Source: Lepas anatifera
Lineage: Eukaryota; Arthropoda; Thecostraca; Lepadidae
DNA length: 64,000 bases
Assembly: GCA_034440635.1 (NCBI GenBank)
Contig: JAOTON010001603.1
Location: 248,001 to 312,000, forward strand
Reading direction: 5' to 3'
Positions 5,561-62,829 of this stretch are shown piece after piece (the stretch's first letter is position 1; each line of letters begins with the position of its first letter). The position numbers and the translations under genes are program-made. The notes under the pieces are model-generated. The model made no database searches. It was not told the origin of the DNA and saw only the letters and a program-made list of their open reading frames with translations.

Positions 5561-6493
5561 TTAATCGTAGCTGCCACAAATGGGACCGAAACGGACTTGT
5601 TCATAGCTTGCGCTGATGGCATCACGTAGGCGGTAGGCCTCCGTGGCGTTGATAGTCTCGCAGACAACCTTCACCTCCACGCTGTAGATGTCGTTCCTGA
5701 TCCAGGCGCGCTCATGGAGCATGTCCTTGATGCTGACGCCCAGTTTGGCCAGCAGGCGCGTCAGCTCGGCGATGCCGCCCGGCCTGTCGGAGACAGTGAC
5801 GGTGAACTTGCAGAGCCGACCCTCCGCCGCTAGCCCGCGCTCCAGACAGCGACCCAGTATAGTGGTGTCGATGTTGCCTCCGCAGAGAGGGACCACCACT
5901 CTCTTATTGCGCAGCTCCGGTAGAGCTCCGGAGAGAATGGCTGCGAGCCCACACGCTCCGGCGCCCTCCACCACCGCCTTCTCCACCTCCACCAGTCTCA
6001 GGATGCTGATGGCAATCTGTTCTTCAGTAACCTGTACCATCTTGTCGATGAGGGGTGCCGCTGTGACGTAGGCATTAACGCCCACCTTGGGAACTGCCAA
6101 ACCGTCAGCCAGGGTCGACTCACACTTGGTGTGGATTGGTTTGCCGTTCTCGAGCGCCGCAGAGAATGTGGCACACTTCTCGGACTCGACGCCGATGACG
6201 AGGATGTTTGGGTTGAGGGATTTGACGGCCATGGCCACGCCGGCGATGAGGCCCCCGCCGCCGACCGGCACCACGATGGCGTCGATGTCGCGCACCTGTT
6301 CCATGATCTCCAGGCCCATGGTACCCTGGCCGGCCAGGATGTTGGGGTGGTCGTAGCCGTTGATGTACATCATGTCGGACTCCTTTGCCATGGCCATGGC
6401 GATCTCCTTAGAGTGAGAGATGTCGTCTCCGCGGACGATGACGTTGGCTCCGTAGGCGCGACAGGACTGTACCTTCATGATCGGCGCAATGAT
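5561..6493 (-). CDS. threonine dehydratase (L-threonine ammonia-lyase) with ACT domain, exon 3 (last)
   Basis: The terminal exon encodes 310 residues (201-510 of a predicted 510) and a TAA-terminated C-terminus. It continues the PLP fold-type II catalytic domain: the phosphate-binding glycine loop GGGGL is near residues 278-282, and a late GGN motif follows in VVVPLCGGNID. The last ~84 residues (from LCKFTVTVSDRPGG) form an ACT regulatory domain. The acceptor is TTTGCAG before ATC ATT GCG, phase 0, giving the junction TVVMP|IIAPIMK, where family members are continuous. The enzyme deaminates L-threonine to 2-oxobutyrate and ammonia. Serine dehydration or racemisation is also known in the family and cannot be excluded. 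It is likely cytosolic or mitochondrial. The ACT domain suggests allosteric control, but the ligand is unknown. Confidence 0.93.
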   Translation of the reverse strand: MIAPIMKVQSCRAYGANVIVRGDDISHSKEIAMAMAKESDMMYINGYDHPNILAGQGTMGLEIMEQVRDIDAIVVPVGGGGLIAGVAMAVKSLNPNILVIGVESEKCATFSAALENGKPIHTKCESTLADGLAVPKVGVNAYVTAAPLIDKMVQVTEEQIAISILRLVEVEKAVVEGAGACGLAAILSGALPELRNKRVVVPLCGGNIDTTILGRCLERGLAAEGRLCKFTVTVSDRPGGIAELTRLLAKLGVSIKDMLHERAWIRNDIYSVEVKVVCETINATEAYRLRDAISASYEQVRFGPICGSYD

Positions 6494-6574
6494 CTGCAAA
6501 AGAGTCGCTCACGTTATTTCAGAGCAAGCTAGCGGGTGGCATCCGGCGTGAAACATGCCTATTTATAACTAAGT

Positions 6575-9257: not shown

Positions 9258-10335
9258 CGATTATCGTGAGCAGTGGGATGAGAGAGGGGGTGGAGTCCTG
9301 CTTCTGTTACCGCCGACGCGCCTCAGCTCACGCCGGCTTCGGCACCAGCGGCGAGTAGGCCAATTGTTTTCTCTTAGTGACATAGTGTAGGCATTCAAGA
9401 AGTAGGCATTCAAGAAATAGTATCTGTGGCCCCCTCTAGTTTACTTAGCATGTGATTTTTCTGCCATGCGTTGATATGCTTACTTTCAAATAAAATACAT
9501 AATGTGTTCGAATATATTTCCCACTAAGCTACGGGGGTTTAAGGTATGTTTCGGGCTGATTAATTAGTGCCGTCTGTGTAGCCATTGTAATGGCTTGCAA
9601 TGGCTTGCGGCCAATGCATTGCTGGCAGCACCACTGTTCAAAAATGTGTTGAATTGCTGCTGTGTCGTAGCCTAGTCAGCGTAAAGCGGCGATTGTTGTG
9701 TTCACTGGCGAGAACAGAGGACTGCAGTGCCTCGGAACAGGGCCTGGATAGAATTGGTGCTAGTCAGTCAAAGCTTGTCTGGAAAACGCTCGAGTGCTGT
9801 CTAAGCATACCTCCCCAGATGATGGAAACGTGAGTGGACTTATTAACGTCTCACTGGCTTACGTCATGTGCCCGATTGAGGGTATGCCAATTTCAATTTC
9901 AAGGAACATGAATATAGATATAAAGCGTGCTAGGCTGTACCTACGCCTGAAAGGACATTTTCTAAATAAAAGAATAGCCGCTTATCAGGTCAATGTGACC
10001 AAATAAAATTATAAATGCTTTATGTTTGGGAGTGAGAACAAGAGAGCATCACTATATTGACCTTGGTCGTGTTCGACGGCTGATTGGAGCTGGGCAGCCT
10101 CGTAAACCACTTTACCTTGAAGTCTTGCGCCAGAATCAATGCCTCTTCCCATCGATGACTGTGGTTGATACCTACGTGAGAAAATTTATGCCGACAGAGA
10201 ACAAAATAACGCCAGCTATAATAAAATCATCGACGCCAATGTCATCGTCCGCCAGGGCCAGTTTTTACTGCCCAAACCCACTCTTTCCGCCACACTCCAT
10301 TGAACACTGTGGAAACAGAACCCGGAAAATCTTAC

Positions 10336-10614
10336 CGGCATGACGACTGTGATAGAGATGCCGAGCTCTTTGCCGTGGTAGCAGAGAGCGAGGGCGTGGT
10401 TGCCGGCGGAGGCCGCCACCACACCCTTCCGTCGCTGCTGCTCCGATAGCATCATCAGCGTATAGCGCGCGCCGCGCTCCTTGAAGCTGCCTGTGTACTG
10501 CATGTAGTCCTTCTTGAAGAAGAGCTGCATGTTGCACTCTTCGGAGATGTGGGAGCGGGTGCAGGGGGTTACCATGATGCCGGACTTGATTTTGTAGGCG
10601 GCTTCGCAAATGTC
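10336..10614 (-). CDS. threonine dehydratase, exon 2 (PLP-lysine exon)
   Basis: The exon encodes 93 residues (108-200), from DICEAAYKIKSG to ITVVMP. It carries the Schiff-base lysine in the family motif TGSFKERGA (K152 in my numbering) and the substrate-binding SAGNHA motif (176-181). The acceptor is CTCGGCAG before GAC, the donor CCG|GTAAGA. Both junctions are phase 0 and join smoothly to exon 1 (RELHFQ|DICEAA) and exon 3 (VVMP|IIAPIMK). A very long CACT/CA microsatellite begins about 100 nt upstream of the acceptor on the transcribed strand. Confidence 0.93.
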
Positions 10615-10715
10615 CTGCCGAGAAGGGCGGATATTCAAAGAAGAAAGAAGAAAACACTTGATTTTTGGCAGAACACTTCGTTTTGGCGTTGCCTCAAGAT
10701 TGTTGAATTTGCTAA

Positions 10716-11256
<541 letters not shown>

Positions 11257-19911: not shown

Positions 19912-19919
19912 TTATTCAG

Positions 19920-20275
19920 TAGACCAAGTCGTCAAAAAATAATTTCTGATTTCGGATTACGAGTAGTGATTTTTTATGTCATGATGTGTTACAAACATGA
20001 TGCAATCAAAACAAATCCGATGAATCTACGTTTAATGGGCGCGGAACGGCCTTTTCTGAAGGCATGTTTTCCGACAGATGGCGTTGAAGTCTCCATTGAC
20101 TTAACGATGCATTGGTGTCAGTATCCTTGCAACACGTTAACATTTGTACCAACATCAAAACGTCGAATCCATTTGCACCTGGTCTGTAGTCAGGCGGGTG
20201 CAATGGGTACCCGGGCACCCGCTGTGAGCCCAGGGTACCCCCTGGCCATTTCCTGGGCACTCCCCTGTACTGAAG
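19920..20275 (+). repeat. left terminal inverted repeat of the 4.5-kb transposon
   Basis: This 356-bp arm pairs with 24107-24459 on the other strand at roughly 85-90% identity by eye. Examples are the runs 'tttaatgggcgcggaacggc' and 'ggcgttgaagtctccattga'. It starts directly after TTATTCAG. Confidence 0.92.
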
Positions 20276-20545
20276 CTAGACTTTTTCTCGAGGTAACAAC
20301 CTTGACTTTAGCAACAGTAACCTTTCCAGGCGATTAATTTGATGAACTGAATTATAAACTCGGTTTAAACGGAAAACAAGTATTTGGCCATCGTTTTCCC
20401 TTATTTTTTTGTTCACACACTTCCTCCAATTGACTGATTTCCGCTGAGATGTAGCCCCTAACTCCCCTCCACAATTACATGTATCGGCTTTCTTCGGACT
20501 TCAAATATCCGTTGCGTTCTTGCGGGATGGTTTGCAGCGCAAAAT

Positions 20546-20653
20546 GCGCGTGCGCAAACAGCAGAGAAAATGACTTCCGAGCTGACTAGTTATTGGGAGA
20601 TGGTCTTCATGACACAACGCGCGTGCGCTAACAGCAGAGAAAATGACTTCCGA
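20546..20653 (+). repeat. 35-bp direct repeat pair upstream of the transposase gene
   Basis: The 35-bp units at 20546-20580 and 20619-20653 differ at one base. Each starts GCGCGTGCGC and ends AAATGACTTCCGA. The pair starts 73 bp apart and lies about 180-290 bp before the transposase ATG, so it could be transposase-binding or promoter sequence. That role is inference. Confidence 0.75.
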
Positions 20654-20835
20654 CCTACCGAGCGCGCGAACGTTTTATTTATACCAAAACTTCCATCAAG
20701 TGAAGGTCTGGTTTTTGATACCTGAAAGAAAAGAAGACGTAGTCAAAAGCATAAGATAGCAAATATTGTCCGTTACCGTGGATCAAACACCAATTTGCAT
20801 GCATTTCGTGAACTGAATCCTACAATAGTAAAACC

Positions 20836-22309
20836 ATGCCGAAAGTGAAAAGGATAACCCGCCGCGGCAGCTATAGAAACATTACAGAATATTTGGGCAA
20901 GGGGAAAGAGATAAGCTTGACGGAGTTGCCGACTCTCCGGGACTGCTTGAGATATGGAGTGTTTCTCAGGGAACAAAAGCCATACTCAAAGTACAGCACC
21001 GTGGATATGGCTCAAGACATAATCATACAAGTCCGAGATCGTTGGAGTAGGGCCAATGCCATGTTTCGGCCCCCAGCTACCATCGCAGACTCAACAATCA
21101 GGGCGAAGTTGGTATCTGTGTGGGATCGAGTGGGCAGGATTGCTCGTAAGAAAACCACCTGCCCCACACAAATCCGAAAGATGTCACAGCAGCTTGACAA
21201 GCTTTTCGACATCACCAAGTGTCGCTGTCCCATACTCCATTGCGAGGAAGCAGGCTGTGTGGGATGCCCGACCTCCAGCACTGCACTGCCAGCATGCCAC
21301 ATCAAGTGCACCTGTCCGAAGGAGCAGAAAATTCCCGATCTGGAGCTCCCTTTTATTTTGGCTCAAAGACAGAAACAGGGAGAGAGGTCTTCGTACATGA
21401 TAGCTAATCTTGACAGAAAGGAGACTTTGAGACAGACATTGAGCCTCCAAAGGAGAGAGAAGGAGGATAAATCAAAAGCGAACATGATGCAAAAGCAGAA
21501 ACAAATCAAAGAGAAGGAAACCAAAGCTTCCCCAAAAGGCGCCGAGTCCTTAGATCAAGACACTGTAGGCAATCAGGGTGAACAGTCAAATCAAGCAGAG
21601 AAAGAGGAAGAACGGGAATGGAAGCATCAGTTATCAGAGGGCATCAATGCAAGCAACCGCAACATGAGAAGCATCAGAAATATTGCCATGGCCTCCATCA
21701 GGTACGGTGTGTCTGCGAACGCCACTGCAGCTATAGCAAATGCTGCCCTGTTGGATTTTGAATTCATTTTTGCAGAGGATACCACACATGTGGTTGATGC
21801 AAAGAAGGTCCAGCGGGCCAAACAATTCTTGTACACTGAACTGCAAGAAAAGTCAGCTGTGGAGAACCAGGAAAGTGATGTGAAATGCATCTTCATGGAT
21901 GGGCGGGTGGACTTGACACGGACTTACATTGATACAGAAGACGGAGAGCGGCTTCATCCGTCATTTCAAAAGGAAGAACACTACTCTGTGGTGTCAGAGC
22001 CTGGGGGACACTACTTGTTCCATTTTACTCCACCGAAGGCAGACGGAGACCATACTGCAGCCCAACAAATCGCAAAGTGTCTGGTGCAGTGGATGCAGCA
22101 GTATGGGGTGGACAAGACAATCCAGTTTATCGGAGGAGATTCCACAAACCTGAACAGCGGTATCTGGGGCGGCGTGTTTCAGTTCGTGGAGAACATGCTG
22201 GGCAGACCTCTGAACTGGCTGCTCTGTGGTCTTCACCTCAACGAACTGCCGCTGCGGCACCTAATCATCGACCTGGACGGACCCACGAGTAGCGGCAGCG
22301 GCTTCACTG
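20836..22309 (+). CDS. hAT-like transposase, exon 1
   Basis: The exon encodes residues 1-491 plus one base of a 799-residue protein, from ATG 20836 (aaaccATGcc) to the donor ACTG|GTCAGT. Residues 129-160 are a Cys/His cluster (C129, C131, H135, C136, C141, C144, C154, H155, C158, C160), a possible zinc-binding DNA-recognition module in place of a BED finger. A Lys/Glu/Gln-rich, probably helical, linker follows (about 195-270). The RNase H-like part starts near 345: D355 in CIFMDGRVD, D435 in IQFIGGDSTNLNSG, and CGLH at 464-467 after it, the CxxH arrangement of hAT transposases. It likely acts in the nucleus to excise and insert the surrounding element. It is not a family I can name. Confidence 0.88.
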
Positions 22310-22544
22310 GTCAGTGTAACAGATTAAGCTCACGACGCCTGATGCTTTGGCATGTGTGCTATGCTTCACTTGTGACACATTTTTACTCGTTGGGTATTTT
22401 TGATACCACATTGTCACCAATGAATGATTCTATATGTTCTGCATTCCTCCATCTCCACCTAAAACTGTTTTAGTCCCCATCAGTCTCCGTGTTTTCACGC
22501 CCAATTCTGCATCCTCTCCGGTCACGCCCTGCTCTGTCTTTCAG

Positions 22545-23470
22545 GTCCCCTGGGCAAGGCTCTTGCCACAACCACGGACCTGCCAGTCAGCAAGAGGTTC
22601 CGCAAGATCGTCATCGGACCTGACCTCCCAGAGCTCACAGATGAAGTCAGAAACGATCTGTCGACCGACCAGAGATATGGCTACGACATGGTGGCAGCGA
22701 TCCGCTCCGGACACGTGACCGACCGCCTCGCCAACCTGGACATCGGCCCGGTCAACCATAGCAGGTGGCTGACCACCGCCAACCGCTTCCTCCGGCTGTG
22801 GGTCAGCCAGCACGGCTTCCAGGGCAAGGAGTTCACAAACTTGAAGCTGATCTGCGAGTGTATCGTGGGTGTGTACTACCCCACCTGGTTCAGCTACAAG
22901 ATTAAGAACCACTGGCTGCAGGGTGCCCGGACCTGCCTGATGCAGCTGCAGCTCATCTTGTTGCAGAACAAGAAGGTAGTATCGCTGGTGTATCCGCACC
23001 TGGAGTCCAGCGCCTGGTGGGCGCATCCGGAGATGCTGCTGCAGACGCTGCTGTGCAGTGAGGACCAGGACGACAGAAAGTTCGCGGTGAAGAAGATCCT
23101 GGAGGTGCGTGAGGCGGAGGCGGCAGAGAGCGGTGCTAACGTCAGAACCAAGCACAAAGTCAAGCTGAACAAGGACGCCACAAACCTTAAAGATCTGATC
23201 ATATGGGACCAGAGCGAGATCAACGAGCCTGTGCTCACTCTGAGCCTGCCTACCGAGGATATCAAGATGTTCCAGACTGCTCCCATGGAAGTTATCAACT
23301 TACCCGTCCATAGGCAGGGCGTGGAACGGTGCGTAAAGGAGGTAACGGCCGCCTCCGAAGCTGTGTTCGGATACGACAGGAGGGACGGCTTTATCAGGGC
23401 TAGGCTAACTCACAGGCAGATGACGGGTGAATTGAGGTCCAAGAAAGACCATGCGATGATCTGCCTATAG
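22545..23470 (+). CDS. hAT-like transposase, exon 2
   Basis: The exon encodes residues 492-799. The acceptor TCTTTCAG|GTCCCC restores the split glycine codon and gives FTG|PLGKALATTT across a 235-bp intron. HSRW at 563-566 resembles the RW motif after the first hAT helical insertion. The C-terminus has VERCVKEVTAASEAVFGYDR (751-770) followed by RDGFIRARL and HRQM. E752 sits where hAT enzymes carry the catalytic glutamate of their (S)ERxFS motif, so D355/D435/E752 is my proposed triad. The frame is intact, with no stop or frameshift, even though the element's terminal repeats have diverged. The stop is TAG at 23468-23470. Confidence 0.88.
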
Positions 23471-23609
23471 TAAGAATGGATTTAATGTCTGATGTGCACC
23501 GGAATCGATGTGTATTGCCTCATTTGTGTAGCATATTCGAGCTGCCAGGTCATCTCCAGTACCTGATGGTGATTCAGACAACGCTCAAAGCATTAAGCAT
23601 TGAGAAACA

Positions 23610-23615
23610 AATAAA
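23610..23615 (+). terminator. candidate polyadenylation signal of the transposase gene
   Basis: AATAAA 140 bp after the stop codon, upstream of the inserted SINE. Confidence 0.5.
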
Positions 23616-23841
23616 TACAGGAAACAATTAAAACCAGTCGCCCTTCCGGTTTGTCTCATGACTGCGTGTCTCACAATGTTCATACCGCAGGACAGCATAC
23701 CTTCAGCCTCCAGTTTGATCATTACATTTCTACACTGTCTTACTCCAAGGTCCCACGTGCAAATCACGCTCATAGCCAGAACCCAAATCCCAGGAGGTGC
23801 TCAGCTAGAGATTAAAACCAGCTAACCAACCAAAGTTATTA

Positions 23842-24002
23842 GTGGGGTGCAGTAGGCAGCACATCGATATCCTGTGCCATAGTTCCCAGGTTCAAATTCC
23901 CGGCAGGTACATTGAATAAAGGCAACCTGACTATCCCTTCTAATAGGGTTGGCTGCGCCGTATAATCCAAAAGGTTGGTGCGTCATTAAACCTAAAAAAT
24001 CC
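23842..24002 (+). mobile_element. tRNA-derived SINE inserted in the transposon
   Basis: A 161-bp SINE with A-box-like GGTGCAGTAGGCAGC, B-box-like GGTTCAAATTCCC, the 3' module 'gttggctgcgccgtataa..ggttggtgcgtcattaaa' and an A-rich tail. A 9-bp target duplication, AAGTTATTA, is at 23833-23841 and 24003-24011. A relative lies at 37041-37212. It inserted after the 4.5-kb transposon, in its 3' non-coding part. Confidence 0.82.
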
Positions 24003-24106
24003 AAGTTATTAAGGTTCAAAGCTCGATAAATCCATATACCTTCAGTACAGGCGGTGCCCAGGAAAGGGCCAGGGGTGCCCTGGACTCACAGCATAAATCC
24101 ACGTAC

Positions 24107-24459
24107 CTTCAGTACAGGCGGTGCCCAGGAAAGGGCCAGGGGGTGCCCTGGACTCATAGAGTGTGCCCGGGTACCCAGTGCACCCACCTGACTACAGGTC
24201 AGGTGCAAATGGATTCGACGTTTTGATGTTTGTCAAAACCTTATCGTATTGCAAGGATACTGACAACAACGCATTGTTAAGTCAATGGAGACTTCAACGC
24301 CATTTTTCAGAAAACATGCCTTCAGAAAGGGCCGTTCCGCGCCCATTAAACGTGGATTCATCGGGATTTGTTTGCTTGCATCATGTTTGCAATACATCAT
24401 GACATAAAAAAATCACTACTCTTAATCCGAAAGCAGAATTTTTTTGACGACTTGGTCTA
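24107..24459 (-). repeat. right terminal inverted repeat of the 4.5-kb transposon
   Basis: A 353-bp arm, the inverse of 19920-20275, ending in CGACTTGGTCTA before TTATTCAG. Its inner ~65 bp ('ccttcagtacaggcggtgcc..ggactca') are duplicated in tandem at about 24030-24095, which the left arm lacks. Confidence 0.92.
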
Positions 24460-24790
24460 TTATTCAGTGATATGAGTCGGAGCCAAATGAAGCTTGTGAC
24501 TTGGTGGTAATACACTGATACAAATATTGGTCCCCTGGCGGGGGGAGGGGAGGGGTACACACCCCCTTCCCCGGTGACACTGTTTAGTAGCCCATCCAAT
24601 TATCTATAGGAATCATTTGAACCATGTTTTTGTCTGGTCACATTTAAGGTCACTAGAGGTAAAGGCATGTCACCATAGGGATAACAATATAACATGCTGA
24701 TGATAGTTTTCCGCCATTACATATGGACTAGAAAAGATAGAGCAAAACAAATTTATACCCTTGGAATCCTAACAGAAAACCGGAATCGAA

Positions 24791-25009
<219 letters not shown>

Positions 25010-25499
25010 CACACATAAATAGTTAGTTTGCAAACTCACTAGTTAGTTTGCAAACTACCTAGGTAGTTTGCAAATTCACTAGTTCATTTGCTGAATAGCC
25101 GAATTACTTTCGATTAGTAATCTAGAAGCTGATCCAGCTCAGTTTTGGTCTCCTAACTGATAGGCAGGCCGCTTGAGATATACAGAAATTGTCAACGAAA
25201 GGATAGCACGGTAGCCACGTAGCCTACCTGAGTACTTCTTGACATGCCAAGCATAGCCAGGAGCCAGTATAAGAATAAGGGCAGGGGCCGGGCGTGGCCT
25301 ATCCGGTCCTCTTCTTGCTGTTCAATCAAAATATGCATTATTTTAATGACGTGAGGGAAAACTGAAAGTAGTACAAGATATCATGGGCCTAAAACTGCGT
25401 TTCAAGTTGCAAAACAGAATACGCAACAGGTATTTTAGCGACGACGGCACTGCACTCTGCCTTTGTTATCACCTGAGAAAAAGCAGGAGGGGGAGAGAA

Positions 25500-26400
25500 T
25501 GGTAACGGGTACTTACCCCGTACCGGCGCAAGTTAAGGATTTTGGACCGCATATTCGTTTTTAGTAACCGGACCAGGCCCTGATACCGACTTCCTTATAG
25601 GAAGGTGGCGGATGTTAGACTCGGGACTGGTCCCCTTTTAGGCCCGGGCGGGATGTTTTGTATTTGACCCTTATCCGCTTAGTGAGGGAGTTGGATCGGA
25701 CCCCCTTGGTTTTTCGCGAATGATTCCGAGCCGATTTAAATGAGATGCGCCTGACTTTGTATAACTCTAGGCTCTAGGCTCTAGGCTGGTCAATGAGTTA
25801 TGACGTAAGTTATAAACCTATGTAAGGCTATTTTAGTCTTCTAACAAAAGACTGATACAACCAGGGCATCCACTTTTAGGCCAGGAGAATAACAAAGTCA
25901 CCACAGGTCACCAAAGGTAACGGTTTTCGAGATTGCTTGCGTTCGTACCTTTTGAAGGAGATAAGATACAACAATAAATTTGGTATCATGGTGACGAGCA
26001 TGACCCAAGGATTCAGATGATGTGCAACATCACCGTGAAATATCATTATTGAATCTTGAACTCAGATCAAGGTAAAGATTCAACCTTTCAAGGTCATGTT
26101 GCATATCACTCGAATCTTTGTGTTAAAAGAAACACATTGATGTCTTTGACTGTTCTAGGTCTTATGGTTCCCGAGTTATATAATATTTCCCTAATGAATC
26201 AAAATTTACCCGTTTTGACCCTGTTACGTTACGGGTCAATGGATATGGTTCAAACTCGGATTTTGATTACAGGACGGTAAGGCCCAGCACCGTTTCAATT
26301 TTTTCCGTACCATATCCGGTTCCTGAAATCGTGGGAGGGATCTTATCGGACCCCCCACCGGGTGATGTTGGGTGCGGAGAGCCCAGGCGGTGCCGGGTTA
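25500..26400 (+). repeat. diverged interspersed repeat, family G copy 2
   Basis: Colinear match to 6950-7870, including 'attccgagccgatttaaatg', 'atggttcccgagttat' and 'gagcccaggcggt' blocks. It is non-coding. Confidence 0.5.
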
Positions 26401-26597
26401 ATGGACGTGAAATATTTTCAAACTGAAAAATAAAACAATGCAGAAGTGAATCTGGAATTTCCTCGAGGATGACGAGGATGTAAGTCTCGAGATCCCCGCC
26501 GGGAAAGGGGCGCACGCAAATCTTCTTTTATTGAGCGTTAACTATCTGCAAGCGGAGTCATTTATGCCTGCTTATTAATTTCATATGTTCAGGGGCC

Positions 26598-26850
26598 GCG
26601 AAACCAACTATTCGGGGCCCTGAGATCAATTCTGGGAGCCCTCGAGACCAGCTCTGGGGCCTCCGAGACTAATTCTCTGCGTTCCCAAGACCAAGGCTTG
26701 GGGTTCCCGGAATCAGCTATTGGGCCCCTTAGACAAATTATGTGGGGTCCCCGAGACCAGCCCTTGGGGTCCACAGACAAACTCCTAAGGACTCCAGGCG
26801 AACTCTTAGGGGCTCCAGACCTACTCTTGGGGTCCCCTAGAACAACATTC
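26598..26850. repeat. degenerate ~32-bp minisatellite
   Basis: Around eight imperfect units of the type 'ggggcctccgagactaa', 'ggggtccccgagaccagc' repeat every ~30-34 bp. The open frame across them is repeat-driven. Confidence 0.75.
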
Positions 26851-27604
26851 CGGTGGCATCTGAGTTTCCCGGGAACAGCCATCAGACATCATTTGGGACC
26901 CATGCGGGAGGGGGAGGGTTCGGCTTTGCAATGCTAAGCTCAGCCCACGGGGGTCTCTCCTACCGACCCCCCGCCACTTGAATCTGCCCCTGAATGGGAT
27001 AAAAACCCATAAACATGCGCCTCCGAGTAGGCACCTCCTGGCTTCCAGGTGCGTCACCTTCGGTAAATAAGTAAGAAAGCCAGCGTATCTTCAAACTACA
27101 AACGGCAGAAAGTGCCCTTTTTAGATCCAATCAATTTCCAAATGTGACTTATTTTTTATTATACTGGCTCCTGGCTATGTTTGGCATGTCAAGAAGTACT
27201 CAGGTAGGCTACGTGGCTACCGTGCTATCTTTTCGTTGACGATTTCGTTATATCTCAGGCGGCCTGCCCATCAGTTAGGGAGACCGAAACTGAGCTGAAC
27301 TAGCTTCTACATTATTAATCGAAAGTAATTCGGCAGTTCCGCAACTGAACTAGTGAATTTGCAAACTCCCTAGGTAGTTTGTAAATTAACTAGTGAGTTT
27401 GCAAACTAACTAGTTAGCTTGCAAATTATCTGATCAGTCAGGGAGTTTACAAACTGCTTAGTTTGTAAACTAACTAGGGTGTTCGCAAACTCACTGATTG
27501 GTCCGGGAGTTCGCAAACTAACGGATTTCGCATGCTAACTGGAACATGATGATGATTGGGGTTTTCGGGCACGTCAGCTGCTGAGGCTATATGTGCCGCT
27601 AACT

Positions 27605-27607
<3 letters not shown>

Positions 27608-27650
<43 letters not shown>

Positions 27651-27651
27651 A
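27608..27651. repeat. (CA)n-(TA)n microsatellite
   Basis: A CA run of about 17 units followed by TA, mirroring the left border at 24794-25009. Confidence 0.95.
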
Positions 27652-28094
27652 TTTGAACTTGTTAGGTGAAATCTGGCTCGGTCTAGGGTTTGACCTTACC
27701 TGAGGTCCGGCAAACGGTAAATTAAGTCAAAATGCATATCATCAGAACTACAAGGACAATGCCAACCTAATGTCGTAAAAATAGCCGCTCTACCTCCTGC
27801 TATTACTAAGTTATTCGTTTAAACCATTTTCCCATGTATTTCCTGTGGAGAGGTCATGACTCGTACCTGACATTAGGTTACCGATATAAGAAATACCGGA
27901 ATATGTTTTGTAAAATTATGTGGGGCCATTATGTGATGAGTTTCAATTGGATAGGTCCACCCTGTTCTGACTTATGCCAACTTTAACTTTTTTAGGTGAG
28001 GTCAGTTGACCTGCACTGGTGACCTGGCCTGAGATTACCCAGCCTTAAAATGTTCCAAAGGTTGTAAAAGTGATCAGGAAAAAGGTATACCAAG

Positions 28095-30823: not shown

Positions 30824-31842
30824 TTAACCCTCGCCCCACCGGGGGGCATCGATGGCCCCCTAAGGTTTTTCCGGGATAGCAGAAAAACGACGAGGCGCAG
30901 CACCGCGGTTGAGGACTCTATCTCTCACTGCATCATTTTCCCATCATCCCTGAAATTTTTACCCCGGGTCACCCAAGGTCAGGTCACCAGACGAGGTCAA
31001 CCAAGGTCACCTCACTTCACCTTTAGAGCTCTGTAAGAGCTACATTTCAAAGTCGATCGATTTGAAACTTCCTACACTTCATGACCCCTCCAGGGTCTAC
31101 AAGGTGTATATCCGGGATTTTTCGATTTCGTGCCCTGAGGTCAGGTCACGAGGCGACCTCTCCCATTGGAAAAGCATAGGGGAAAAGCTATTTCATGATA
31201 TAAAAGCCACAAAAATGATTGCAAATACTCAGACTGCTCAGAACAACGTTTTTGGGCACCCTTTCACGGATCCCAGGGGTCATATTTACCCTTTGACTTT
31301 TCCAAGGTCATCCAAGGTCACCAGAGGTCAAAAACAGTATTTTGACAATAACTTTTTACCTAATTGAGCTAGAGCGGTGAAACAAACACCATCGTGTTTG
31401 CCTTGTCACTGGCTTTCATTTCATATACGGCAAGGCCACTTTTTGACCTTTCGTAACCTTAGGTCACGAGGTGACCTCTGGCGGTCAAACCACTGGCGGG
31501 AGGTCTTTACGTTCCGCATAGCGGAAAAAGTTCAGGAAATTTGGTATCAAATGTACTTTACCAGGCCTCAATAGCTCTAATGACAAGAGTTATGCCCAGT
31601 TTGCTTAATCATTGCATATTTGAGTGAAAATAGCCGATCTTGACCTAATTTGACCTCTGGAGGTCAAACCATTGACCTGAGCACTAAAACATGTGAAGTA
31701 ATTTCTTACTGAATTCACGCGAGCTTTCTATTGCACTTTGCAGATTTGCGCTAACGCCCATATTTTCGGAGTTAGAGGGGGGCCATCGATGCCCCCCGGT
31801 GGGGCGAAGGTGGCGCCGGACCCCCGGTGGGGTGCGGGTTAA
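30824..31842 (+). mobile_element. TTAA-flanked MITE, family B copy 1
   Basis: A 1,019-bp element bounded by TTAA (30824-30827 and 31839-31842), starting TTAACCCTCGCCCCACCGG and ending CCCGGTGGGGTGCGGGTTAA. Subterminal palindromes surround ATCGAT. AGGTCA occurs at 31305, 31315 and 31325, i.e. three half-sites with 4-bp spacers. More AGGTCA motifs lie near 30970-31015. TTAACCCT termini recall piggyBac-type elements. No protein is encoded. Confidence 0.87.
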
Positions 31843-31959
31843 GTGCATTTCAATGCTTAGATACTTGGTCACCGCAAGGGATACCGTACCCCTGCACTCT
31901 GCAGTCTTTGCCTTATTCCGTTGGTTTTTGTTTTGCATCCGTTGAGGTTGGCATGTGGG

Positions 31960-45712: not shown

Positions 45713-45836
45713 CAAGGAAAATTAGCTTTTCTAGGCACTCTACCCCCGTTTGTCCTGCCAGCGATAGCAGCAGCAGCAGGTGCTCCTATAACCTTCGTAA
45801 GCGTAGATCCCTAAAGTACAAACGTTAAAAACCACC

Positions 45837-48800
45837 ATGGGTTCAATTCTGCAATGGAACACAAATGGCCTTATCGGGAAATTCCCGCTTTTTTCATCAA
45901 TTTTTGCTGAGAAAAAACCGGCGCTAGCAGCATTACAAGAGACCCACTTTACTGATAAAGATAACGATAAATACAAAATCTCGGGTTACTCTTGGTATCG
46001 CCATAACGTAAACGCTGCCGTCCGTAAGGGAGGCACAGCCATCCTAATAGAAAATAGCATCCCACACAGTCGCGTGCCTTTGGTAACATCACTGGACTGT
46101 GTAGCTATTAGCTTGAAAATACAACACGTCCAATTGACGGTAGTTTCAACATACATATCTCCTTCCGACCCTGATCCAACGGATCGGGAACTCGCTCAAC
46201 TAATTAATCAAATAAACGACGGGCCTTTGTTATTACTTGGAGACTTGAATGGTCACCACCCATCCTGGGGCAGCGCCACACCAAACCGTAGAGGTGAAAT
46301 TATATATGACGCAATAGGTTCTCAAAATTTAGTTATCCTAAATAACGGCGCACCAACCCGCCAAGCAACGCAAAGCGGATATTTAGACTCAGCCATTGAT
46401 ATTTCGTGCTGCACGCCTAGAATTGCGTCACTGTTTACCTGGGATGTCGAAGACAACCCAGGCATGAGCGATCACCTCCCAATCAAAATTGATATCCCCA
46501 AGGAGCACTCGACCGCGTTGATCTGTTCACCCCTTCCTGGAGTCTAAAACGAGCGGACTGGACAAAATTTGAGGCAGAGGTCGACCTCACACTGGTCACC
46601 GAAGGTGACCCACACTCGGCAGACATTGAATTAACACTAAGAGCCATAAGCTCAGCAGCACAAGTAGCAATACCAAAAACCAGAGGACCCCGAAAGAAAA
46701 ACGGAGCCCCATGGTGGAACGCAGAGACGGCACACGCCAAAGCTCAAATGATAAGAGCCCGCAAGGCATATGAGAGGAGGGCACACAGCCCTACTCGATG
46801 TGCACTTCGGGCAGCAAAAGAACACTTTCGAAACACGTGCAAGCGGGTTCAACGGGTTCAAAAGGACAGTTTCAACTCCTTTGCCTCCAAATTCAACCGC
46901 TTCACTCCCACCACCCAAGTTTGGAAAACCATTAGAGCTTTCTCTGCGAAGCGACCACCCCGTGGACCTTTCCCTCAACTAAAAATAGCTGGCCAACCCA
47001 TCACCGAACCTAAGGAAGTCATGGATAAATTTGCTGATCATTACGCCAGTGTCGCAGCTAATAACTCATACAGCCAGCGCTCCAAAGACCAGGCAGAATG
47101 GTGCAAAAAGCACACATTCATCAATTATGGTAATCAAGAGTACTATAACTTACCATTTACAATGACCGAGCTAAATTACGCCATTAGCAAGTGTGGAAAC
47201 ACTGCAGTGGGCGCTGACGAAATTCACTACTCTTTCTTCAGGCACCTCAGCCAAACGGCACTAAAGTACCTGCTTTCGGCCATTAACATCATGTTTCTTA
47301 GCGACTCTTTCCCCACATCGTGGCGAGAGAGTATAATCATTCCCCTTCCAAAACCTGGCAAAGAAAAAACAGACCCAAAAGGTTATCGCCCAATTTCGCT
47401 TACTAGCTGTGCTAGCAAGCTTGTCGAGCGCATGGTAAACGTTAGACTTCACGAGATCCTCGAAAAGAAGCTTGATGCTATGCAATCAGGCTTCCGGCGC
47501 GGGCGAGCCACCACTGACAATTTGGTGAAACTAGTCAGTGACATCCAGAATGGCTTTTACAAAAGGCAAGTAACAATAGCTGCATTCTTAGACATTAAAT
47601 CGGCGTTCGATCGCGTACAAAAAGACGCCCTTTTGTTTAAATTAAGCAAGCTAGGAATTCGTGGCCACCTTGCAAAATTCATTGAAAACTTCCTCAAGGA
47701 CCGAAAATTTAAAGCCCGTTGCGGCACCATATTCTCCTACCTGGCAACCCAAGACCAAGGCACACCCCAGGGTAGCGTTCTGTCCCCCACCCTCTTTCTA
47801 GAAATGATCAATGATCTATTCGCCAAAAAGCTACCGCCTGGAATAAATTACTCCCTTTTTGCGGACGATGTCGCCATTTGGAAATCCACTGCAATCGATA
47901 CCAGGCGGTATAATGAACCAGAATTTCAACATGCAACTACGCAGTTGCAGGATAGCTTAAACGACATCGATAATCGGTGTAGTTTAATGGGTCTATCACT
48001 CTCGGCGGAAAAATCATCAGTCGTTGTCTTTGCCAGAGCGCATTCCAGACACGACCCTCCACGGCTCCAAATCTCGGGTAAACCTATTGAATGCACCAAT
48101 AGCTTCAAATTCTTGGGCGTCACCCTAGATTCCCGATTGAGCTTCAATGAGCATATCGCCAAAGTCGTCTCTAGCTGTCAAAAGCGAGTCAACATTCTCC
48201 GCATGCTCGGCGGCACAGAGTATGGCGGGGATCGAAAGACCCCTGCTTATGCTCTACAAGTCCCTGATACGGTCCATTCTCGAGTATAATTCGTTGGTTT
48301 TTGACTCGACGAACAAGACCAATAAACTAAAGCTAGAGCGAGTCCAAAATGCCAGTATCCGGGCAGCCACAGGCGCGCTCAGAGAATCCCCCATCACCAG
48401 CCTGCTAACTGATAGCGGGCTATGCCCACTGCAGACAAGACGCGACGCCCAGCTTATTTCTTACTACATTAAGGTCCAATCCACCGAAAACCACCCGGCA
48501 AAACAATGTTTCGCCCATCCCAGACGAGCAAATAAAGCCACTCTACAGAAGTGGCCCCCGTTTAAGCACAGAGTAGCGAAAACCCTGGAAAGCCTAAATC
48601 TTGCACTGCCAGCAACAATAGGCAAACCCCCACTCTCCCGCTTCTGGACTCGGAAAGAGCCCAAAGTGGAATTTCTTTTCACTTCCCGTAAAACGGACTT
48701 CTCAGAGGAAGAAGTCTCCCAGAAATTCCTAGAGTTCCTATCTTGTAACGTGGACAAGACCTTTATATTTACAGACGGCTCCAAAATAGGCGAAAAAGTA

Positions 48801-49567
48801 GGCCTCGGCATCTGGGGGCAAAATTTTGCCTACAGAAAAGACTTCCGGACAACTGCTCTATCTTCACAGCCGAGGCTGTTGCCATCCTAGATGCATTGGC
48901 CATAATCAGAACACAAAATATCAACTCAGCCGTCATCTGTTCAGACTCTAAATCTGTCCTGCAGGCCGTCAGTAACGTAGTCAACCCCAGCCACCACGTT
49001 ATAGCAGATATTCAGAAAGGTATCGATGATACCCCTGATGTCTCTTTTCTTTGGATCCCGGGCCACTGCAAAATTCAAGGAAATGAAAAGGCCGACGAGC
49101 AGGCAAAAAAGTCCCTAGAACTTAGAGAGATCGCACCCTTAATGTGGTCTGGAGATGATAGCAAAGCTCTCCTCCAGGACAGTATCTGGAAGCAAATTCA
49201 AAATAACTGGACAACAAACCACAGCGCCCACCTATTCCATATCAAGCCTAACATCGGCTACTGGCCCAGTTCCAACCAAAAGAGTCGCCGGCGCGAGGTT
49301 ATTCTAACCAGACTCAGAAATGGACACACAAAATTAAATGCCTATTGGAACGAGGGTACCTGTGGTACCTGCGACGCAATGGAGAATCCCTATCACATTC
49401 TCATCGATTGTCCCCAGCACAATACCCATCGGCAACCCATGCTAGATTACTGCCGAATCCAAAACATCCCTGTAGACCTAAAAACTCTGCTCGGTAACGA
49501 CCATCCTGAGCTACTCGAAAAAGTCTTGACATTTCTAAAGGACTCTGGGCTAGAGAAGTTTCTATAA
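45837..49567 (+). pseudogene. LINE ORF2: endonuclease, reverse transcriptase, RNase H (frameshifted)
   Basis: The frame starts at ATG 45837 (caccATGGG). An APE-type endonuclease (LQETHF; GDLNGHHPSWGS; SDHLPI) runs in frame to ~46500. The reading frame then shifts by one, and reverse transcriptase follows to ~48250 with KGYRPISLTS, GTPQGSVLSP and FADD (47858-47869). A second shift leads into the RNase H region, FTDGSKIG and beyond. A third shift near 48870 precedes CSDSKSV and WIPGHCKIQGNEKAD. A CGTCDAMENPYHILIDC zinc-like motif lies near the end. There are at least three frameshifts and no internal deletion. Confidence 0.92.
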
Positions 49568-53084: not shown

Positions 53085-53551
53085 GGGGAATGTATCGGAG
53101 TTCTTGTAGCGTTTGGTCATCCACGTCACGTCATCCCTCGCGCTGCCCTCAAGGCTATTGTGAAGTCACTTGTGTTGTCTATCGTTCAGTACTGTCTGTC
53201 CATGTACGGTTCTTGTCGATAGTTGTAATTTTGCCGTGTCCAGAAAATCGTGAACCGCTGCACGAGGTGTGACTGGTCGGAGGCAATATGACCACATATC
53301 TGACGCGATGTCGAGGCTTGGCTGGCTCGGTGCCAAGCAGCTGGTTTGTTACTCGACAGTGTGTGACGTTGAGCGGATTGCAGTGGCTGGACTCCCGGAA
53401 TATGTGTGGCAGACTTTTGCCCGGAAAGCCAGCCAAGTGCATCAGCAGCCACAATACACTTGCGCCGAATCGTGGGCACTCTGGAATATGGGCGGAGTCC
53501 GGCCGCCGTTTCTATGCTATCGAGGGGTGGCGACGATGCATCGGAAGGGAC
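53085..53551 (+). pseudogene. LINE reverse-transcriptase C-terminal fragment 2
   Basis: IPRAALKAIVKSLVLSIVQY..YGSC (to 53222), then, in another frame, RRQYDHISDAMSRLGWLGAK..YSTVC (53275-53390), then GRRFYAIEGW (to ~53540). This is the region downstream of the FADD motif in a different LINE. It lies tail-divergent to fragment 1 and is frameshifted. A TTAA MITE adjoins it at 53552. Confidence 0.75.
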
Positions 53552-54589
53552 TTAACCCGCGCCCCACCGGGGGTCCGGCGCCACCTTCGCCCCACCGGGG
53601 GGCCATCGATGGCCCCCGCCCCTCTAACTCCGAAAATATGGGCGTTAGCGCAAATCTGCAAAGAACAATAGAAAGCTCGCGTCAATTCAGTAAGAAATTA
53701 CTTCGCATGTTTTAGTGCTCAGGTCAATGGTTTGACCTCCAGAGGTCAAATTAGGTCAAGATCGGCTATTTTCACTCAAATATGCAATGATTAAGAAAAC
53801 TGGGCATAACTCTTATGTCATTAGAGCTATTGAGGCCTGGTAAAGTACATTTGATAGCAAATTGCCAGTACTTTTTCCGCTATGTGGAACGTAAAGACCT
53901 CCCGCCAGTGGTTTGACCGCCAGAGGTCACCTCGTGACCTAATATGACCTGAGGTCACGAAAGGTCAAAAAGTGACCTTGACGTATATCAAATGAAAGCC
54001 AGTGACAAGACAAACACGATGGTGTTTGTTTCACCGCTCTAGCTTAATTAGGTCAAAAGTTATTGTCCAAATACTGTTTTTGACCTCTGGTGACCTTGGA
54101 TGACCTTGGAAAAGTCAAAGGGCAAATATGACCCCTGGGATCCGTGAAAGGGTGTCCAAAAACGTTGTTCTGAGCAGTCAGAGTATTTGCAATCATTTTT
54201 GTGGCTTTTATATCATGAAATAGCTTTTCCCCATGCTTTGTCAATGGGAGAGGTCGCCTCGTGACCTGACCTCAGGGCACGAAATCGAAAAATCCCGGAT
54301 ATACACCTTGTAGACCCTGGAGGGGTCATGAAGTGTAGGAAGTTTCAAATCGATCGACTTTGAAATGTAGCTCTTACAGAGCTCTAAAGGTGAAGTGAGG
54401 TGACCTTGGTTGACCTCGTCTGGTGACCTGACCTTGGGTGACCCGGGGTAAAAAATTTCAGGGATGATGGGAAAATGATGCAGTGAGAGGTAGAGCCCTC
54501 AACCGCGGTGCTGCGCCTCGTCGTTTTTCTGCTATCCCGGAAAAACCTTAGGGGGGCCATCGATGGCCCCCCGGTGGGGCGAGGGTTAA
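53552..54589 (-). mobile_element. TTAA-flanked MITE, family B copy 2
   Basis: A 1,038-bp inverse copy of 30824-31842 with TTAA at both ends (53552-53555, 54586-54589). It is highly similar throughout. The 4-bp-spaced half-sites are conserved as TGACCT at 54081, 54091 and 54101. Confidence 0.88.
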
Positions 54590-59828: not shown

Positions 59829-60673
59829 TTAACACGCGCATTGACGGGGTCTGAGCCACCTTCACTTTGACAAGGGGGCGGGAACCTGCCCCCTTAAGAT
59901 CTCGAGAACCACAGTAGGTAGCGAAAAACGGTAAACGGCGTTGGGTAGCCCATCCACTTCTCCATCGAAAATAGTTGAAATATTTTTTTCAGGTCAGATT
60001 TAAGGTCACCAGAGGTCAAAACATGCCGTAATAGGGATAACATATAAATTAAGTTTTTGGGCATTGCATCCGAAGAAGTAAAGATAGAGCAAAACGATTT
60101 ATACTACATGAATCCTTGCAGCAAGCCGAATCGAATGATATATGACTTGACCTTACTAGGTCAAATCAAGGATTTGACCTGACCTGAGGTCAGGTCAGGG
60201 TCAAATGATATAAAATGTATATCATTAGGACCGCAAAGCCAAGGTGAGTCTAATGCTGCTAAAATAAACGCTCTATTACTACCCGTTACTGAGTTATACA
60301 GTAAAAAAACATTTTTTCTATGTATTTCCAATGGAGACGTCATGCCTCGTACCTGACCTTAGGTCATCGATATCAAAAATACCGGAACATATTTTAGAGA
60401 ACTCGGTGAGTCCATAATGTGATATGAATTTCAGTCGGATAAGTTTACCATGCTCCGACTTATGCTATCTTAAACTTGTTTTGAGGTCAGGTCACTTGAC
60501 CTGTACTGGTGACCTGACCTGAGATGACCAAACCTTAAAATTTTCACAGAAGTTCTAGAAATGATGAGGGAAAGGGTATGTCACGTACGGCAGCGCCACG
60601 CGCCGCCGTTTTTCTGCTATCTCCGAAAAACTTGAGGGGGGCAGGTACCCACCCCCGTCAATGCGCGTGTTAA
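59829..60673 (+). mobile_element. TTAA-flanked MITE, family A copy 2
   Basis: An 845-bp complete copy with TTAA at 59829-59832 and 60670-60673 and the same termini as 1173-2019. AGGTCA at 60003-60008 and 60013-60018 keeps the 4-bp spacing. A central TGACCTGACCT/AGGTCAGGTCA palindrome lies at about 60176-60200. It inserted into the TTAA inside the target duplication of the family D copy before it. Confidence 0.9.
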
Positions 60674-62118: not shown

Positions 62119-62829
62119 TGAGTCACGAGGTGACCTCTCCCATTGACAAAGCATGGGGAAACGCTGTCTTATGATCTTAAAGCCACAAAAACTATTGAAA
62201 ATACTCGGCTTCGTCAGAAAAGCGTTCTTAGACACCCTTTCTCAGATTCCAGGGGCCGTATTTTCCTTTGACCTCTCCAAGGTCATTCAAGGTCACCAGG
62301 GGTCAAAAACAGTATTTCGACAATAACTTTTGACCTATATAAGCTAGAGCGCTGAATTAAACACCATCGTGTATGCCTCGTCACTTGCTTTCGTTTGATA
62401 TACGGCAAGGTTACTGTCTGACCTTTCGTGACCCCAGATCATCTTAGGTCACGAGGTGACCTCTGGAGGTCAAACCACTGGCGGGAGGTCATTACGTGCA
62501 AGATAGCAGGAAAAGGTCTGACATTTTCCTATCCAATGTACTTACCACATCTCAATAGCTCTAATGACACAAGAGTTATGCCCAGTTTGCTTAAGCATTA
62601 CATATTCGAGTGAAAATAGCCGATCTTGACTTAATTTGACCTCTGGAGCTCAAACCATTGACCTGAGCGCTAAAACATGTGAAGTAATTTCTTACTGAAT
62701 TCACGCGAGCTTTCTAATGCACTTTGCAGATTTGCGCTAACGCCCATACTTTCGGAGTTAGAGGGGGGGACCATCGATGCCCCCGGTGGGGCAAAGGTGG
62801 CGCCGGACCCCCGGTGGGGCGCGGGTTAA
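62119..62829 (+). mobile_element. TTAA MITE family B copy 3, 5'-truncated
   Basis: It matches the right 70% of 30824-31842, from 'gtcacgaggtgacctctccc' to the terminus GTGGGGCGCGGGTTAA (TTAA 62826-62829). The left third is missing. Half-sites remain at 62280, 62290 and 62300, the third changed to GGGTCA. Confidence 0.85.

Follow-up and report, generated by a model that had tools for sequence, protein, structure and literature searches.

The segment from 19920 to 24459 in a stretch of 64,000 nucleotides of Lepas anatifera DNA (contig JAOTON010001603.1, positions 248,001 to 312,000 of the forward strand; hereafter the window) is one complete cut-and-paste DNA transposon of 4540 bp, since one target site duplication lies outside both of its long inverted arms and a transposase gene lies inside. 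An earlier note on this DNA had claimed a complete DNA transposon of about 4.5 kb, and the claim was borne out. In our judgment it is quite probable that this one transposon was inserted with an 8-bp staggered cut and carries an intact transposase with an aspartate-aspartate-glutamate (DDE) triad in an RNase H fold, representing a separate deep lineage of the C/DxxH group that is nearest to hAT by fold. The reading is built on the structure of the element, its target site duplication, the intact frame, the conservation of the protein and the predicted fold.

Ends of the element

The features that define the element are as follows (window coordinates).

19912-19919, forward strand: target site duplication TTATTCAG, left copy, 8 bp
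19920-20278, forward strand: left terminal inverted repeat, 359 bp, matching the right arm in reverse complement
20836-22309, forward strand: transposase exon 1, with the ATG at 20836; N-terminal domain with Cys/His cluster, D355, D435 and C464xxH467
22310-22544, forward strand: predicted GT-AG intron, 235 bp
22545-23470, forward strand: transposase exon 2, which encodes R565-W566 in the remainder of the insertion domain as well as E752 and closes with the stop codon
23610-23615, forward strand: AATAAA, possible polyadenylation signal
24104-24459, reverse strand: right terminal inverted repeat, 356 bp, outermost 20 bp perfect
24460-24467, forward strand: target site duplication TTATTCAG, right copy, 8 bp

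As the earlier note had observed, TTATTCAG is present on both sides. The two copies directly abut the tips, and the bases just beyond them are unlike each other (C on the left, T on the right). The probability of such an 8-base match by chance at the local composition was 1.6e-5. The inverse termini described in the same note were also found, as a 20-bp inverted repeat without a mismatch at the outermost tips, TAGACCAAGTCGTCAAAAAA, and both ends begin with TAG. The long inverted repeats themselves were likewise confirmed, but their lengths of 356 and 353 bp were corrected to 359 and 356 bp. When the two arms were aligned with each other over 361 columns, 322 identities, 32 mismatches and 7 gaps were obtained.

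Transposase gene and protein family

The gene between the arms encodes 799 residues in an intact frame running from the ATG to the stop codon at the end of exon 2, which agrees with the single intact two-exon gene of the earlier note. Splicing at 22310-22544 was predicted by comparison with homologs. Among 29 frame-keeping GT/AG pairs (donors within 22270-22475, acceptors within 22480-22620), this intron ranked first, with a mean alignment score to five homologs of 2071.8 versus 2059.8 for the next pair. In 119 of 120 homologs, the exon join (GFTG/PLGK) falls where the alignment has no gaps; these homologs are unbroken proteins, and their contigs may be genomic or transcript-derived. If the intron were retained, the frame would stop at 22473 after 545 residues, with the N-terminal domain and both aspartates and without R565-W566 and E752. 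Intron retention produces a repressor in the P element, and by analogy the 545-residue form could possibly act as a built-in repressor.

We then compared the window protein with the alignment of 120 homologs. D355 was found in 119 of them (one G), D435 also in 119 (one gap), and E752 in 103 (17 gaps). C464 was present in 119 (one S) and H467 in all 120, while R565 was conserved in 118, the other two having a C and a gap, and W566 in 119, with a gap in the last. The DDE residues, the CxxH motif and the insertion-domain tryptophan expected of a hAT transposase are all present. Seven Cys and one His lie within residues 129-160, and at each of these positions 92 to 101 of the 120 homologs have the family residue, 0 to 4 have another residue, and the remainder have gaps. 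The window protein has the family residue at all 88 columns conserved at 93% or above, at 133 of the 139 columns at 85% or above, and at 175 of the 187 columns at 75% or above. Since family residues are kept at the conserved columns, we infer either that selection maintained the frame until a fairly recent time or that an intact frame was inserted in the not too distant past.

The family search, in which 7994 candidates were scored, yielded at least 261 proteins at E ≤ 1e-3. None of the best 120 matches, which were listed, had a precomputed Pfam domain. Four of these 120 were named by organism: the fish Aldrovandia affinis and Chaenocephalus aceratus, the crab Chionoecetes opilio, and Hydra vulgaris. 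In a second, alignment-based search, the 120 matches listed included another Hydra protein and a protein of the moth Diatraea saccharalis. All named members among the matches listed are from animals and are labeled "hypothetical," "uncharacterized" or "unnamed." A FastTree tree of 98 proteins placed the window protein with eight others at a local support of 100, with an end branch of 0.44. By identity, P0001 is nearest to it (59%). At E ≤ 10, the window protein had no Pfam match, and among the 25 of 45 families listed for 50 homologs, none could be assigned to the transposase. Neither a description of the family nor any of four family motifs was found in the literature searched, a search without Repbase Reports and most subscription papers. 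Because the members carry such labels and no Pfam entry was found, the transposases of this family of hundreds are likely miscounted as host genes.

In comparisons among transposases of the family from fish (P0099 and P0081) and a crab (P0083), identities of 70% and 78% were obtained, the value of 78% being that of a fish and a crab protein over 438 alignment columns. Such identity between fish and crab proteins suggests horizontal transfer or contamination.

Relation to hAT and other superfamilies

The catalytic residues of the hAT transposase Hermes are D180, D248 and E572. Among solved structures, Hermes was the best match to the predicted fold, 3 Z units above the next family and over more residues, and, like Hermes, the model has an RNase H core and a large helical insertion domain. 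The N-terminal domain had no match among solved structures. No Pfam entry was found for the large family to which the transposase belongs, and among solved structures its predicted fold is nearest to hAT.

Beyond these features, we infer the chemistry of the reaction, the hairpins, the binding of the ends, the splicing and the present mobility of this copy. Cut-and-paste insertion of the element would have involved a staggered cut of 8 bp. D355, D435 and E752 would form the DDE triad in the RNase H fold, and a hAT-type large helical insertion domain is predicted to carry C464xxH467 and R565-W566. On the model of Hermes, a multimer of the transposase would bind the ends, cleavage would leave hairpins on the flanking DNA, and the ends would be joined to the target 8 bp apart. 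The N-terminal domain, with its seven conserved Cys and one His, may recognize the long arms. The family would then form a separate deep lineage in the C/DxxH group, which comprises hAT, P, MuDR, Kolobok, Dada and the bacterial IS256. The transposase probably works like that of a hAT element, without being filed as hAT because the arms are long and no hAT domain was found.

Several observations weigh against this reading. The element is known from one copy in the 64-kb window: a BLAST search of the whole window with the arms as queries (E ≤ 0.01) returned only the arms themselves and element-internal repeats, with no second arm copy, and the 14-bp tip with up to 3 mismatches had 4 matches in the window (2 beyond the element's own ends) versus a shuffle mean of 3.5. 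The copy is probably not very young, because its arms are 11% different and an insert resembling a short interspersed element (SINE) lies inside it. Six of the 139 columns conserved at 85% or above deviate in the window protein, including M354 beside D355 and G750, which lies two positions ahead of E752. The structure model is that of a relative's protein, not the window protein, and the Foldseek superposition on Hermes was loose, with a template modeling score of 0.29 by query and a root mean square deviation of 14.9. The hhalign match to a hAT profile had a probability of 4.2% (E = 0.0099), and its score dropped to 2.2 in global alignment mode. In a permissive alignment with the 35 hAT proteins of that profile, the first aspartate and the glutamate were out of register.

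The profile was made from 35 of 120 listed RICESLEEPER-like proteins, all 35 with a hAT C-terminal domain and 30 with plant names, and represents one hAT branch only. Despite the low probability, the score of 33.2 was above all 300 column shuffles (largest, 31.3) and above the reversed profile (22.1); in an earlier run, the score was also above 29 shuffles and the reversal (largest, 28.4). In the permissive alignment, the second aspartate, both CxxH residues and the RW pair were in register. Such a marginal match would be expected from a very distant relationship. Of the hAT-related lineage proposed in the earlier note, the hAT-like catalytic core was supported (predicted fold, CxxH and RW motifs), whereas for membership in hAT the profile match was marginal and no hAT domain was found.

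hAT elements have the target consensus nTnnnnAn. The single duplication TTATTCAG has the 8-bp length of hAT and fits this consensus, a weak sign in one copy. Together with ends that start with TAG, the lead of Hermes among the fold matches, and CxxH and RW motifs that align in register, this would suit a very divergent true hAT member with lengthened arms, perhaps already placed under hAT in Repbase. On the other hand, the hAT dimerization domain (Dimer_Tnp_hAT) was found neither in the window protein nor among the families listed for the 50 homologs, although a highly diverged domain would escape Pfam, and no BED finger was found in the window protein by Pfam. The N-terminal domain unmatched in solved structures and the marginal profile match also set the protein apart from the hAT transposases of Hermes, Ac and Tip100. 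The ends of hAT elements are terminal inverted repeats of 10 to 25 bp (PMC3942097), whereas the arms here, at 359 and 356 bp, are at least 14 times longer. We therefore regard true hAT membership as rather unlikely, though a serious alternative. The earlier note had pointed to long arms combined with an 8-bp duplication as an oddity. The combination is odd within hAT but not in the wider group: the duplications of Mutator-like elements (MULEs) measure 8 to 11 bp and their arms range from 14 to 500 bp (PMC6446971), and Galileo of the P superfamily has long arms and duplications of 7 bp, or 8 bp in three copies (PMC4168063).

The 8-bp duplication and the long arms would fit a MULE, since MULE arms are often hundreds of bases long (PMC6446971), and the bacterial relative ISCth4 (IS256), which shares the CxxH motif (PMC7780238), was the second fold match. 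However, the insertion domain of ISCth4 spans only residues 261-325, and its spacing between the second aspartate and the glutamate is 107 versus 317 in the window protein (PMC7780238). Hermes was the better match by the 3 Z units given above; no solved MULE structure was among the matches listed, so that MULEs themselves lay outside the reach of the fold comparison. No MULE transposase domain was found by Pfam in the window protein or among the families listed for its homologs, and a MULE is a very improbable identity for the element. KDZ proteins carry Cys clusters, and a Cys-rich part also lies upstream of the core here. The P superfamily and KDZ/Zisupton also make duplications of 7 to 8 bp: Galileo has long arms (PMC4168063), Zisupton makes 8-bp duplications (PMC12730594), and the P element ranked seventh in Foldseek (E = 2.7e-3), a weaker fold match that was not among the best 50 matches of the second fold comparison. 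Galileo has a THAP domain and DxxH (PMC4168063), neither of which was found in the window protein, where the motif is CxxH. No THAP, P-element transposase or KDZ family was matched by Pfam in the window protein, and membership in either group is very improbable. Dada and Kolobok share the C/DxxH group but have duplications of 6 to 7 bp and of 4 bp (TTAA), respectively (PMC3706591, PMC9587614), versus 8 bp here. The remaining alternative, two separate miniature inverted-repeat transposable elements flanking a host gene, perhaps a domesticated transposase, would accommodate the single known copy and a frame intact despite the difference between the arms, but the single 8-bp duplication outside both arms and the at least 261 members of the gene's family make it barely credible.

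The preferred reading is thus that of a separate deep lineage, and the family is likely a lineage of its own, though not categorically new. A fuller description, which we offer tentatively and with slightly less than even confidence, would be an undescribed superfamily-level animal lineage that joins a hAT-like core to a zinc-binding N-terminal domain of unsolved fold, has long arms and 8-bp duplications, occurs in fish, crustaceans, insects and cnidarians, partly via horizontal transfer, and has the 545-residue form as a possible repressor. If the family is its own lineage, it would broaden the enzyme group linking hAT, P, Mutator and IS256, and would provide a natural case of a hAT-like core with long arms, opening the question of the arms' role in end recognition.

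Other repeats in the element and the window

Three further features lie inside the element.

20516-20656, forward strand: two 68-bp direct repeats (20516-20583 and 20589-20656), 82% alike, upstream of the coding region
23842-24000, forward strand: SINE-like insert, 159 bp, with an A-rich end and box-B-like GGTTCAAATTC at 23889-23899
24026-24156, forward strand: 67-bp tandem duplication, spanning the inner flank and part of the right arm

The 68-bp repeats are possible regulatory or protein-binding repeats. The SINE-like insert is bracketed by the direct repeats CCAAAGTTATTA (23830-23841) and CCAAGTTATTA (24001-24011) and contains a likeness of box B; it looks like a SINE inserted later into the element. 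ARAGORN found no tRNA for the insert, and the only Rfam match, under the cut-off, was located outside it. At the right arm's inner end, about 67 bp of the element look like a tandem duplication. Neither this duplication nor the SINE-like insert was listed in the earlier note.

Outside the element, a second pair of inverted arms was found at 25016-25278 and 27153-27416 (240 identities, 23 mismatches, 1 gap); their outer ends are about 2.4 kb apart, and the arms are partly built of 20-bp units. A 700-bp dispersed repeat occurs at 1289-1990, at 59948-60641, and at 24590-24799 plus 27644-28094. Because the copy at 24590 is interrupted about 200 bp in and continues at 27644, a sequence of about 2.8 kb that includes the second arm pair (25016-27416) seems to have been inserted into it. 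A 1-kb repeat is present in three copies (30838-31860, 53538-54575 and 62122-62829), two of which are 95% identical and in opposite orientation. Recognized by eye, overlapping open frames in more than one frame at 45807-49567 resemble the endonuclease, reverse transcriptase and RNase H of a non-long-terminal-repeat retrotransposon, and open frames on the minus strand at 5561-6508 and 10216-10725 resemble exons of a host threonine dehydratase.
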